Positions 41,248-44,243 of a stretch of DNA of 64,000 nt are shown here, piece by piece (positions within the stretch are counted from its first letter, which is position 1; every line of letters starts with the position of its first letter). The stretch lies in contig NZ_LT607753.1 in the NCBI RefSeq assembly GCF_900090295.1, positions 2,232,001 to 2,296,000 of the forward strand, read 5' to 3'. The translations under genes were made by a program, and so were the position numbers. The stretch comes from Micromonospora coxensis. Lineage in GTDB: Bacteria; Actinomycetota; Actinomycetes; Mycobacteriales; Micromonosporaceae. The notes below the pieces were generated by a model. That model was given only the letters and a program-made list of their open reading frames with translations. It had not been told where the DNA came from and searched no databases.

Positions 41248-42402
41248 TCAGCGGAACGGGCCGCGCACCTCGTAGGTGATCCCGCCGGACGACGAGCCGG
41301 AGGTGCCGCGCTGTGACGAGAAGTAGAAGCGGCTGCCGTCCGGGGAGAACGCCGGGCCGCAGATCTCGGACGACGACTGGCCGTTGATCCGCAGGAACGG
41401 CGTCACCACCCCCTCCGGGGTGATCATGTTGATCTCCATGTTGCCGCCGTCCTCGGCGACGTACAGGTCACCCCGGGTCGAGCCGGTGATGTTGTCCACG
41501 CCGGTGAGCGGGGCGGTGCCGCCGGTGACCAGCGAGTCGTCGTACGCCAGGTCGATGCGCTGGGCGACCGCGTCGTACGCCCACACCCGGTTGTCGCCCT
41601 TGGTGGTGAACCAGCAGGTGCCGTCGGCGTACCAGCAGCCCTCGCCGCCGTTGAACCGCTTCGCCCCGGAGACCTGCTGGCGGGTCGACGTCGGGTAGCC
41701 GTCCGGGTCGGGGACCCGCGCCCAGCTGACCGGGCCGCTGGTCGCGGTGCCGGCGACCAGCACCTCCAGGGTGCCGCTGGACAGGTCGCCCCAGACCGTC
41801 GGCCGGAACCGGTAGAAGCAGCCATTGCTCTCGTCCTCGGTCAGGTAGATCACCTTGCGGTCCGGGTCGGCCGCCGCCGCCTCGTGGTTGAAGCGCCCCA
41901 TCGCCGCGCGCCGCACCGCGGCGGTGCCGCCCTGCGGGTACGTCTCGTAGACGTAGCCCCGGCTGACCTCCTCGCAGGAGAGCCAGGTCCCCCACGGGGT
42001 CGCGCCGCCGGCACAGTTGCGGTTGGTGTTCGACAGGATCCGGTACGCCGAGGCGATCGTCCCGTCGGCGCGGAAGCGCACCGCCGAGGCCCCGCCGGTG
42101 GTGGAGATCTCCGAGTTGGAGACGTAGATCCAGCCGGTGCCGGCGGTGAAGCAGGCGCCCCCGTCGGGCGCGTCGTGCCAGGCGTACGAGGTGCCGGGCA
42201 CGACCTGCCGGGAGCGGGCGATCACCCGGCTGGCGAAGCCGGCGGGCAGCTGGATCCCGTTGGCGTCGGCCGCGCCGAGCGGCCCGTACGGGCCGACGCC
42301 GGGCTGGGCCGGGGCGGCCGACGCGGCGCCGGACCAGAGGCTGCCGGCGAAGGCGGCGGCGCCACCGGCGACGGTGGCGCGCAGGACGGTACGACGGTCC
42401 AT
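41248..42402 (-). CDS. Tat-exported PhoX/DUF839-type protein
   Basis: 384 residues. The N-terminus MDRRTVLRATVAGGAAAFAG is a twin-arginine signal followed by an ASA cleavage region. The mature part is a beta-propeller of the PhoX/DUF839 group (TPWGTWLSCEEVSRGYVYE, GRFNHEAAAADPDRKVIYLTEDE, GCFYRFRP, ICGPAFSPDGSRFYFSSQRG). PhoX members are secreted Ca/Fe phosphatases; the catalytic set was not verified. ATG 42402 follows GGGAGG. Confidence 0.85.
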   Translation of the reverse strand: MDRRTVLRATVAGGAAAFAGSLWSGAASAAPAQPGVGPYGPLGAADANGIQLPAGFASRVIARSRQVVPGTSYAWHDAPDGGACFTAGTGWIYVSNSEISTTGGASAVRFRADGTIASAYRILSNTNRNCAGGATPWGTWLSCEEVSRGYVYETYPQGGTAAVRRAAMGRFNHEAAAADPDRKVIYLTEDESNGCFYRFRPTVWGDLSSGTLEVLVAGTATSGPVSWARVPDPDGYPTSTRQQVSGAKRFNGGEGCWYADGTCWFTTKGDNRVWAYDAVAQRIDLAYDDSLVTGGTAPLTGVDNITGSTRGDLYVAEDGGNMEINMITPEGVVTPFLRINGQSSSEICGPAFSPDGSRFYFSSQRGTSGSSSGGITYEVRGPFR

Positions 42403-42518
42403 CGAGACCTCCCGGATTGCTGTAGGTGTCGAGGACGTTACCGCTGGTGGCATCGACGTGGGTAAACTTCAGGCGAGGGTTTCCGGACGACCCGGTGAGC
42501 CCTCCCCGACCGGTCGGG

Positions 42519-42524
42519 TACGCT
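42519..42524 (+). promoter_or_regulatory. -10 element of the aroF leader transcript
   Basis: TACGCT ends exactly 7 nt before the GTG of the leader peptide, so the transcript probably begins at that codon. This places the whole attenuator inside the mRNA. Confidence 0.65.
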
Positions 42525-42531
42525 GGTCGAC

Positions 42532-42591
42532 GTGACGCGCTCGTATCGATGGTTTAGGCAGCCGGCTCCGACGCCGGTGACCTCACCATGA
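42532..42591 (+). CDS. Aromatic leader peptide of the aroF attenuator
   Basis: A 19-residue peptide MTRSYRWFRQPAPTPVTSP starts at a leaderless GTG and ends at TGA 42589-42591. Codons 5, 7 and 8 are Tyr, Trp and Phe, the three end products of the pathway whose first enzyme is encoded downstream. This is the hallmark of a ribosome-mediated attenuator; ribosomes would pause there when aromatic aminoacyl-tRNAs are scarce. Confidence 0.7.
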   Translation: MTRSYRWFRQPAPTPVTSP

Positions 42592-42668
42592 GCTGACGTC
42601 ACCTGAGTTCGAGCCGGCCGGGCAGGAGCTGAAGTTCCTGCCCTTTTGCGTACGAGCAGCCGGCTCGA
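42561..42668 (+). promoter_or_regulatory. Alternative pairing segments of the aroF leader
   Basis: GCAGCCGGCTC occurs twice (42558-42568 and 42656-42666). The intervening GAGCCGGC (42611-42618) is complementary to both; TCGAGCCGGC (42609-42618) pairs 10 bp with GCCGGCTCGA (42659-42668), enclosing the terminator. GGTGAC (42576-42581) can pair with GTCACC (42598-42603). The first copy lies where a ribosome paused on the aromatic codons would cover it. Which structure is the antiterminator is not settled by inspection. Confidence 0.5.
42620..42647 (+). terminator. Intrinsic terminator in the aroF leader
   Basis: GGGCAGGAGC-tgaa-GTTCCTGCCC (one G-U pair) is followed directly by TTTT (42644-42647). 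It is the only U-tract-type intrinsic terminator in the window and lies 57 bp before the ATG at 42705. Confidence 0.8.
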
Positions 42669-42713
42669 CCCGGGTACCGGCCCCGGGGCACGGTCGGCGG
42701 AAGGATGCCCACC

Positions 42714-43805
42714 GTGACGACCCCGGACACCGAGACCGGCGCGGTCATCGACCAGCGGATCGACCGCGTCGTGCCGTTGACCACCCCCGCCCTGCTCCTG
42801 CACGAACTGCCCCTGGACGCCCCGCTCACCTCGGCCGTGCTGGCCGGGCGACGCGCGGTCGGCCGGGTGCTGGACCATGCCGACGACCGCCTGCTGGTGG
42901 TGGTCGGCCCCTGCTCGGTGCACGACCCGGCCGCCGCCCTGGACTACGCCCACCGGCTGCGGGAGGCCGCCGACCGGCACGCCGAGGACCTGCTGGTGGT
43001 GATGCGGGTCTACTTCGAGAAGCCGCGCTCGACGGTGGGCTGGAAGGGCCTGATCAACGACCCGGCGCTGGACGGCTCCGGCGACGTCAACCGGGGGCTG
43101 CGCACCGCCCGCGCGCTCCTGCTCGACGTGCTGCGCCTCGGCCTGCCGGTCGGCTGCGAGTTCCTCGACCCGATCACCCCGCAGTACATCGCCGACACGG
43201 TGGCCTGGGGCGCGATCGGCGCCCGGACGGTGGAGAGCCAGGTGCACCGCCAGCTCGCCTCCGGCCTGTCGATGCCGATCGGCATGAAGAACCGCCCGGA
43301 CGGGAGCATCTCGACGGCGGTGGACGCGATCCGGGCGGCCGGCGTGCCGCACGTCTTCCCCGGCATCGACGTCTCCGGCACCCCGGCGATCATGCACACC
43401 CGGGGCAACGCCGACGGTCACCTGGTGCTGCGCGGCGGCGGCGGCCGGCCCAACTACGACGCCGAGTCGGTGGCCGGCGCGCTGGACCTGCTGCGCAAGG
43501 CCGGACTGCCGGAGCGGGTGGTGCTGGACGCCAGCCACGCCAACAGCGGCAAGGACCACCGCAACCAGCCGAAGGTGGCCGCCGACGTGGCGGAACAGCT
43601 CGCCGCCGGCCAGCGCGGCATCGTCGGCATCATGCTGGAGAGCTTCCTGCTCGACGGCCGGCAGGACCTGGACCCGACCCGCGAGCTGACCTACGGCCGC
43701 TCGGTCACCGACGCCTGCATCGGCTGGGACACCACCGCCGACGTCCTCGACCACCTGGCCTCCGCCGTCCGCGCCCGCCGCGCCACCCTCCCCACCCCCG
43801 CCTGA
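42714..43805 (+). CDS. aroF: 3-deoxy-7-phosphoheptulonate (DAHP) synthase, class I
   Basis: 363 residues. The AroF/G/H family is clear: VVVGPCSVHDPAAALDYA, VVMRVYFEKPRSTVGWKGLINDP, GCEFLDPITPQYIADTVAWGAIGARTVESQVHRQLASG, MPIGMKNRPDG and VLDASHANSGKDH. It condenses PEP and erythrose-4-phosphate, the first step to chorismate. Many actinomycetes use class II enzymes as the housekeeping form, so this may be a second isozyme. GTG 42714 is favoured (GGAAGGA 8 nt upstream); ATG 42705 is in frame but abuts the ribosome site. Attenuation by the leader is inferred. Confidence 0.92.
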   Translation: MTTPDTETGAVIDQRIDRVVPLTTPALLLHELPLDAPLTSAVLAGRRAVGRVLDHADDRLLVVVGPCSVHDPAAALDYAHRLREAADRHAEDLLVVMRVYFEKPRSTVGWKGLINDPALDGSGDVNRGLRTARALLLDVLRLGLPVGCEFLDPITPQYIADTVAWGAIGARTVESQVHRQLASGLSMPIGMKNRPDGSISTAVDAIRAAGVPHVFPGIDVSGTPAIMHTRGNADGHLVLRGGGGRPNYDAESVAGALDLLRKAGLPERVVLDASHANSGKDHRNQPKVAADVAEQLAAGQRGIVGIMLESFLLDGRQDLDPTRELTYGRSVTDACIGWDTTADVLDHLASAVRARRATLPTPA

Positions 43806-43847
43806 CCCTCCCCTCCCCCTCCCCCGACCGCCCCACCCGGACCCCCA

Positions 43848-43916
43848 CCCCGTGGATCAAGAGGTTTTGGTTCCCCACACCGGCGTGTCATGACCAAAAC
43901 CTCTTGATCAACGGGG
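43848..43916. repeat. Large intergenic palindrome (69 bp)
   Basis: A perfect 17-bp inverted repeat (43855-43871 with 43893-43909), beginning with GATC, is continued outward after one mismatch by CCCCGT-type pairing (43848-43853 with 43911-43916). A small ACAC/GTGT stem is inside. It follows a C-rich run after the aroF stop. The arms are AT-rich relative to surroundings. Architecture matches 37365-37430 though the arm sequence differs. Confidence 0.8.
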
Positions 43917-43991
43917 CGGGGCCGGGGTCGGGCGGCGGGGCGGGGACCGGGGGTGGGTTTGGGGGGTTTGGTGGCGGGTAGGTGTGCCGGC

Positions 43992-44243
43992 GTGACCGAC
44001 GACGTTCCCGTGACCGACGCGCCCACCACCGACGCGGCCGTCGACGAGCCGGACATCCGGCGCCTCGACGACCTGCTGGAGGACCTGTACCACGGCCAGG
44101 AGCGGATCAGCCAGGCGGACATCTACCGCCGGGCCGTCGCGGCGGAACTGCCCGCGCAGCTGCTCACCCGGATCGCCGCCCTGCCCCAGGGCGAGTACGC
44201 GGTGGACGAGGTGGCGGACCTGCTCGGCGGCTCGGTCACCTGA
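43992..44243 (+). CDS. Small DUF2795-like protein
   Basis: 83 residues. The C-terminal half (AVAAELPAQLLTRIAALPQGEYAVDEVADLLGG) resembles the DUF2795 helix-turn motif common in actinobacterial small proteins; function unknown. GTG 43992 follows TAGGTG by 7 nt. It is 32 bp upstream of the next small gene and likely co-transcribed. Confidence 0.6.
   Translation: MTDDVPVTDAPTTDAAVDEPDIRRLDDLLEDLYHGQERISQADIYRRAVAAELPAQLLTRIAALPQGEYAVDEVADLLGGSVT

Follow-up and report, generated by a model that had tools for sequence, protein, structure and literature searches.

The 64,000-nucleotide stretch of Micromonospora coxensis DNA analysed here (positions 2,232,001 to 2,296,000 of contig NZ_LT607753.1; hereafter the window) carries on its forward strand, at 42714-43805, a gene for a class I 3-deoxy-D-arabino-heptulosonate 7-phosphate (DAHP) synthase, and it is the leader region in front of this gene, with its short open reading frame (ORF) rich in aromatic codons, that is considered below. 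The enzyme belongs to the aroF/aroG/aroH family (TIGR00034; 470.8 bits against a cut-off of 173.2), its best solved relatives are Phe-regulated DAHP synthases, with Tyr-regulated ones scoring lower, and the closest named relatives of the gene are found in Micromonospora. Translation most likely starts at GTG 42714, behind the Shine-Dalgarno sequence GGAAGGA (42699-42705); a longer version starting at ATG 42705 was set aside in favour of this start. The genome is a single contig of 6.77 Mb, in which the synthase is the only PF00793 match.

Upstream of the gene, TACGCT at 42519-42524 is the predicted -10 element of a leader promoter, whose transcript would start at, or adjoining, a GTG codon (42532-42534). 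Because the -10 element lies only 7 nt 5' of this GTG, the ORF that it opens (VTRSYRWFRQPAPTPVTSP; 42532-42591, stop codon included) would be leaderless. It has 19 codons, ends with TGA (42589-42591), and contains at 42544-42555 the putative regulatory codons TAT (Tyr, 42544), CGA (Arg, 42547), TGG (Trp, 42550) and TTT (Phe, 42553). A sequence-only reading of this DNA had pointed to such a leaderless GTG 7 nt downstream of TACGCT, opening a 19-residue peptide with Tyr, Trp and Phe codons, and all of these parts are located where it placed them.

Several RNA elements follow on the same strand. Copy 1 (GCCGGCTC, 42561-42568), which begins 8 nt past the start of the Phe codon, recurs as copy 2 (42659-42666), and GCAGCCGGCTC is found at 42558 and 42656. 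The complement, element C (GAGCCGGC, 42611-42618), can be the partner of either copy; it ends one base 5' of a predicted intrinsic terminator, T (42620-42647), which comprises a stem-loop of 10 pairs with a loop of 4 (42620-42643) and the tract TTTT. Copy 2 lies 3' of the terminator and would pair with C around T. The hairpin P2 (GGTGACcTCA...TGAcGTCACC, 42576-42603) spans the stop codon, the motif 1b (GCCGG, 42573-42577) might form a short local hairpin with copy 1, and element E (GTCGGC), recognised from the sequence and the alignment, occupies 42693-42705 together with the Shine-Dalgarno sequence of the synthase gene. The terminator had been called the only one of its kind in the window, and when the whole window was searched, on either strand, for stems with 8 or more pairs and, directly after them, 4 or more T within 5 bases, T was indeed the sole result; a terminator scan of 3 kb, also on both strands, gave T as one of 2 terminator-like sites, with 0.3 expected in shuffled sequence. 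Rfam covariance models produced no match on the leader when 41500-44000 was searched up to E 5, all 7 matches being microRNA models that fall on the inverted repeat at 43822-43940, and in seven related loci only 2 matches were obtained up to E 0.01, both to one microRNA model in locus L070.

A relative of the gene is present in 219 of 250 genomes of the same family, Micromonosporaceae. Among 140 loci of this family (30 + 80 + 30, the 80 being a non-random selection from the high-scoring part of the list of relatives), an aromatic leader, recognised by an ORF 8-45 codons long in which 7 residues include 3 or more aromatic ones, was accepted in 128. Phe, Trp and Tyr are all present in 119 of 120 aligned leaders (115 from the family and 5 from named relatives, i.e., three Micromonospora, Kribbella and Paractinoplanes), in the other accepted family leaders (13/13), and in 58 of 59 further actinobacterial leaders, although these counts are conditional on the definition of an aromatic-rich leader. 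A leader reading all three aromatic residues had been thought unusual; among leaders recognised as aromatic-rich, it is instead the rule. The start codon is GTG in 112 and ATG in 8 of the 120 aligned leaders, and a -10 element of the form TAnnnT ends 6-7 nt 5' of it in 116 and 10 nt in 4 (6-8 nt in 58 of the 59 further actinobacterial leaders), where, among several possible starts, the script favoured the one with a -10 element. With spacings measured at alignment columns, copy 1 follows the start of the last aromatic codon by 8 nt in 108 and by 2 nt in 12 of these leaders, and the distance is 7 nt in 113 from the GCCGGC of C to T and ranges from 8 to 24 nt from T to copy 2. Within the genus, all 61 congeners share TAT, TGG and TTT, and also codon 1 and codons 10-12, the latter containing part of copy 1; codons 2, 3, 4, 6, 9 and 13 are variable.

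The leader is also found beyond the family. In a second family it occurs in 30 of 30 loci, these being the best 30 of the 127 genomes with the gene, and related leaders precede the gene in named Rhodococcus, Amycolatopsis, Mycobacterium, Streptomyces and Kribbella loci and in probable Corynebacterium loci. The class I gene is present in 57 of 396 genomes of a phylum sample; in 28 further phylum loci, a leader was recognised by eye in 9 (L131-L135 and L137-L140) and none in 19, mostly from more distant families. A model built from 49 leaders finds in the whole genome a sole site on its strand, the leader locus itself, its second match (E 0.02) being the same place on the opposite strand. When applied to a phylum sample of 296 genomes, this model strongly matches the window and one congener, with 5 marginal matches besides (E 0.0036-0.0086), and it fails to recognise more distant leaders.

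Codon choice in the leader is the reverse of that in the window. The 120 aligned leaders contain TAT and TAC at 120:1 and TTT and TTC at 129:7, whereas the corresponding numbers in 34 long ORFs of the window, some of which may be non-genes, are 1:183 and 7:209. Tyr is likewise encoded by TAT rather than TAC (59:1) in 59 leaders of other groups, and TTT outnumbers TTC there only by 62 to 30; by eye, TTT predominates at the last Phe codon, and TTC is frequent at an earlier one. Both TAT and TTT would generally be decoded by wobble by single tRNAs. An alternative reason for their use would be selection for an unpaired A+U stretch.

The pairings themselves co-vary. In a 49-sequence alignment, 1:C, P2 and T are paired in 88.8% of cells, compared with 82.5% after shuffling, and 12 of the 27 pairs have changed on both sides, of which 7 are among the 10 pairs of T and 2 belong to 1:C. 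The outer 6 pairs of P2 are paired in 90.1%, the inner 3 in just 54.7%. Because 6 of the 8 pairs of the 1:C helix are invariant, and hence uninformative, duplex energies were compared within and between species, using own and swapped duplexes of 34 representatives. The own duplex is favoured for T (z -9.3, better in 32), 1:C (z -5.2, better in 27), C:2 (z -4.7, better in 25) and P2 (z -4.0, better in 26), whereas the control pairs are not clearly better within species (5' arm of T with copy 1, z -0.6; copy 1 with copy 2, z -1.4). The candidate pairings D:E, 1b:C and copy 1:1b gave weak signals only (z -1.8, -2.1 and -2.0, respectively) and were not retained. Since the energies of 1:C and C:2 are both better within species, two partners of C are supported, copy 1 before T and copy 2 beyond it; the earlier observation that GAGCCGGC can pair with either copy is correct, and both pairings co-vary. 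Across Micromonosporaceae, an alignment, the comparison by which the sequence-only reading had proposed to judge the leader, combines conserved Tyr, Trp and Phe codons with co-varying stems. Because copy 2 is situated beyond the terminator, its pairing with C cannot itself be an antiterminator.

In a broader set of 60 sequences from many genera, C and the downstream region likewise fit better within species (z -7.8 overall), and this is seen in leaders of the window's type (z -3.5, n=19), in other leaders with T (z -5.0, n=20) and in leaders without T (z -3.0, n=21). Copy 1 and the downstream region give no within-group signal (z 0.1, -0.1 and 0.3; -1.7 over all 60). Because pairing served to choose C in this set, the comparison is circular for 1:C, though not for C:2; the automatic choice failed in at least L013 and extended into the hairpin in L280, and both loci were kept. 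It should be noted that both the shuffle and the swap tests leave sequence relatedness in place. In 20 leaders of other genera, in which T was sought only near C, the gap between the two is at most 3 nt in 16 and 4-6 nt in 4.

The position of the ribosome has a marked effect on these pairings in computed folds. For RNA ending at the U tract, a ribosome at the stop codon gives a mean 1:C probability of 0.93 over the 120 leaders, and a stall gives 0.97 at Tyr (n=119), 0.62 at Trp and 0.17 at Phe, the window's own values being 1.00, 0.99, 0.71 and 0.24, respectively. When the RNA reaches into the gene, so that copy 2 competes, the means are 0.46 (stop), 0.69 (Tyr), 0.14 (Trp) and 0.00 (Phe), and C:2 reaches 0.92 with the Phe stall. 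In the model, Phe is the codon of greatest effect and Tyr has nearly none at either RNA length, i.e., a ribosome stalled at Phe would mask copy 1, one stalled at Trp would do so partly, and one stalled at Tyr would not. It had been suggested that the leader reads all three aromatic end products; where the codons lie with respect to copy 1 instead predicts a strong effect of stalling at Phe, a partial one at Trp and zero effect at Tyr.

In the sequence-only reading, the antiterminator had merely escaped resolution by eye; in fact, it was not found by a test that detects it in three E. coli controls. The test measures capture of the 5' arm of T by upstream RNA before the 3' arm has been made, with the at-stop value subtracted from the stalled one. 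In trpL, capture is 0.56 stalled vs. 0.06 at stop (+0.50); in pheL, it is 0.65 vs. 0.21 (+0.44) at 6 of 7 Phe codons, with +0.28 at the last; and in hisL, it is about 0.7 vs. 0.38 (~+0.3) at 6 of 7 His codons, with -0.13 at the last. The 120 leaders show no stall-dependent capture of the 5' arm of T (mean difference -0.08; above +0.2 in 6 and below -0.2 in 37). The mean for 20 leaders of other genera is -0.29, with 19 negative values and one positive, which is read only as absence of capture; we think that the negative values arise partly from the first bases of the leader being free at stop. Two probable Corynebacterium leaders stalled at Phe8 show no gain in capture either. Thus, by computation, the locus has two features of a classical attenuator, an ORF with end-product codons and an intrinsic terminator before the gene, and shows no sign of the third, a stall-dependent antiterminator.

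The locus is very probably an aromatic leader-peptide attenuator, and in this respect the sequence-only reading, which had placed one before the DAHP synthase gene, is supported both in Micromonosporaceae and in other actinobacteria. As to how it operates, we lean, with a little better than even confidence, towards a sensor of ribosome position on a leaderless transcript that would control the class I DAHP synthase, with the 1:C helix raising termination. When aromatic tRNAs are charged, the ribosome would pass TAT-CGA-TGG-TTT and depart; copy 1 would then pair with C, forming a helix that ends one base 5' of T, and transcription would stop at the short U tract. A shortage of Phe-tRNA (to a lesser degree of Trp-tRNA, and scarcely at all of Tyr-tRNA) would make the ribosome wait with copy 1 under its leading edge, C would be unpaired as RNA polymerase arrives at T, and more transcripts would read through; in the read-through RNA, C might then be captured by copy 2. 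We infer that the leader is translated, that termination occurs at T and that the response has this direction, and, above all, we infer that the 1:C helix rather than an antiterminator sets the efficiency of T. This mechanism is the simplest that has the right sign while relying on nothing but copy 1, C and T, the parts that the Corynebacterium-like loci have too. More tentative, and to our mind somewhat doubtful, is the broader idea of a family of attenuators free of antiterminators, in which the ribosome would pick which partner, before or beyond the terminator, captures one strand abutting it, a neighbouring rather than a competing helix would set termination, and the rare codons TAT and TTT would be kept for sensitivity.

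Several observations weigh against such a sensor. No leader was accepted in 12 of the 140 family loci (L199, L228, L230, L236, L237, L243, L244 and L246-L250); ORFs at L228 and L236 were judged to be chance occurrences and not counted. T folds with high probability in every modelled ribosome state, so that the computation offers no reason why 1:C should alter termination. Equilibrium folding of T in each state was dropped as a diagnostic, since the terminators of E. coli trpL and hisL, too, are formed at equilibrium. The model uses fixed footprints, whose edge is set 13 nt beyond the first base of the A-site codon, and includes neither kinetics nor pseudoknots. A Trp stall lowers 1:C only to 0.62 in the nascent RNA. 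The conserved C:2 pairing is left unexplained by the mechanism. Rhodococcus-type leaders keep copy 1, C and copy 2 and by eye have no T, which means that more than termination at T must be involved in them; where a genus is without T, the swap between the two copies must act in another way; in Dietzia-like leaders, T is present without a U tract.

A trp/phe-type attenuator of the classical kind, in which a stalled ribosome permits an antiterminator to take the 5' arm of T, would fit the order of leader, regulatory codons and terminator, and an anti-terminator has been invoked for C. glutamicum leader-peptide genes (PMC6892785). The pairing of 1b with the 5' arm of T also has a small within-species advantage (z -1.9, p 0.03). 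Nonetheless, we regard this explanation as unlikely, given that stall-dependent capture is missing from the 120 leaders, the 20 leaders of other genera and the two Corynebacterium-like ones, and that the 5' arm of T co-evolves neither with copy 1 (z -0.6) nor with the 3' side of P2 (z +1.8). That both the ORF and its proximity to a terminator are accidental can practically be dismissed: an aromatic-rich small ORF of some kind does appear in 133 of 2000 dinucleotide shuffles of 42225-42723, but one with a -10 element ending 6-7 nt 5' of its start in 2, both of which contain Phe, Trp and Tyr, and the conservation of the leader in 128 of 140 loci, which refutes chance, is far stronger evidence than the shuffles.

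It is also conceivable, though improbable, that the switch works chiefly through translation initiation, RNA decay or Rho, with C swapping partners between the two copies and whichever copy is unmasked and uncaptured holding element E by the Shine-Dalgarno sequence. Persistence of the 1-C-2 skeleton in genera without T speaks for this, as do two results of folding: in 22 Actinoplanes-like genomes, the pairing of E with copy 2 is 0.02 at the Phe stall vs. 0.45 at stop, and, of 14 Rhodococcus-type leaders, 6 have copy 1 paired near the start of the gene in the ribosome-free state (0.2-0.7), whereas none does under a stall. However, E co-evolves with neither copy 2 (z +1.9) nor copy 1 (z +1.4), the z value for copy 1 with the downstream region is near 0 within each group, total pairing of E in the Actinoplanes-like genomes changes little (0.82 vs. 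0.92), and accessibility of the Shine-Dalgarno sequence is nearly constant between states (0.62 vs. 0.58 on average). Sequestration of the Shine-Dalgarno sequence by either copy, which inspection by eye had suggested, is thus unsupported by either co-evolution or accessibility. Finally, copy 2, a complement of C, is made only when transcription reads through T, so the terminated leader might serve as a trans-acting small RNA whose C pairs with copy 2 of full-length transcripts; we consider this very improbable, since in the released leader copy 1 would be expected to occupy C (0.84 for RNA that is free of ribosomes and ends at the U tract) and the co-variation of C with copy 2 is explained equally well in cis.

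The nearest known system is that of C. glutamicum. An aromatic leader encoding FYF has been described there before aroF, seen by RNA sequencing (PMC4046766), and the aroR-aroF attenuator was studied by Neshat 2014, as cited in PMC11802643 and PMC6892785. Both there and here, an aromatic leader stands before a DAHP synthase gene, which in C. glutamicum is named aroF. A review reports that transcription of aroF rises on Phe limitation, independently of Tyr (PMC11802643), and the modelled preponderance of Phe over Tyr agrees with this response. In L292 and L293, both probably Corynebacterium, WRFYF, copy 1 and C adjoining T are found before a relative of the window's enzyme, and WRFYF matches the FYF described for aroF (PMC4046766). 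The peptide reads Y-R-W-F here; the Phe-Tyr-Phe signature is missing from it and is taken to be a species variant rather than a defining trait. In the aroR-type grouping made in the present analysis, the window shows both a leaderless aromatic-rich ORF directly 5' of a class I gene and a copy 1/C pairing around the stop codon with C next to T, the latter being seen also in L292 and L293. Copy 2 is present and co-varies here, whereas by eye it is unrecognisable in L292 and partial in L293.

The locus resembles E. coli trpL, pheL and hisL in having a short ORF with end-product codons followed by an intrinsic terminator. Those leaders show stall-dependent capture of the 5' arm of T and the family of leaders considered here does not; unlike in E. 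coli, the ORF is leaderless and the pathway would be sensed at its entry. What sets the locus apart from classical attenuators is that one of their defining parts was sought and not found and that the leader has another conserved element. Actinobacterial trp attenuators and the LEU element of leuA are similar in using leader peptides, some without all of the ordinary attenuator parts (PMC1262725, in its accessible text). The same 2005 survey by Seliverstov reports, in that text, no conserved RNA structure in front of operons for phenylalanine or tyrosine and does not describe the 1-C-T-2 element (PMC1262725). Several leader peptides of Streptomyces lividans are likewise leaderless, some without a clear terminator, and the table of eight such peptides in the available part of that study includes no DAHP synthase leader (PMC8079986).

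In the accessible open-access literature, no description of an aromatic leader of DAHP synthase beyond Corynebacterium was found. Wolf 2017, a study cited in PMC8079986 and reportedly on Actinoplanes, may list such a leader. A leader at the entry to the aromatic pathway, described in this literature for Corynebacterium alone, thus stands before many actinobacterial class I DAHP synthase genes, and the genera that carry it include antibiotic producers whose precursors come from the aromatic pathway. Its compact and conserved set of RNA parts makes a sharp prediction (Phe more than Trp, Tyr hardly at all) and poses the question of how a ribosome controls a terminator that lacks an antiterminator.

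Some leaders deviate in their terminator region. In L272, L276, L278, L281 and L282 (the Dietzia-like genus g282), a long hairpin is seen by eye in the place of T, e.g., GAGGCGGTGACC...GGTCGCCGCCTC followed by CCG, which is either a terminator without a U tract or no terminator; L272, L276 and L281 were also covered by the computed analysis of leaders of other genera. In L294 (genus g304; leader MHNAYFWFARPARVGTVGGWMR), element C itself is the 5' arm of the terminator, followed by TTTTTT. Because C lies within the terminator, 1:C would, unlike in the window, exclude termination, and this locus may work differently from the others.

A class II DAHP synthase is encoded elsewhere in the same genome (L002, G000:C1 near 1746238), with no aromatic-rich small ORF within 480 bases upstream. 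TACGCT is located shortly 5' of its ATG, so this gene may be leaderless and have the same -10 element as the aromatic leader. Divergent from the leader, on the minus strand at 41248-42402, is a gene for a 384-residue protein without an NCBIfam match, which may be PhoX/DUF839-like. Just 3' of the synthase gene, a perfect 16-bp inverted repeat (ATCAAGAGGTTTTGGT and its complement) is found at 43856-43908; its arm occurs 10 times in the genome with at most 1 mismatch, compared with 0 for the reversed control, and as an inverted pair at two places, so the repeat might be a dispersed element or a two-way terminator. Small ORFs with a very high content of Phe, Tyr and often Trp stand before the class I DAHP synthase genes of several Proteobacteria as well (named loci such as L020, L024, L034, L035, L067, L070 and L072), for example, MSAKFYFYFFWHLRPLADREG in Burkholderia-type genomes, MNANRSFYFWYYGFPMPLAEEG in Xanthomonas and MITVATSYFWYFSYDSSLAAGG in Bradyrhizobium, and aromatic leaders for class I DAHP synthase therefore look to be distributed more widely than in actinobacteria.

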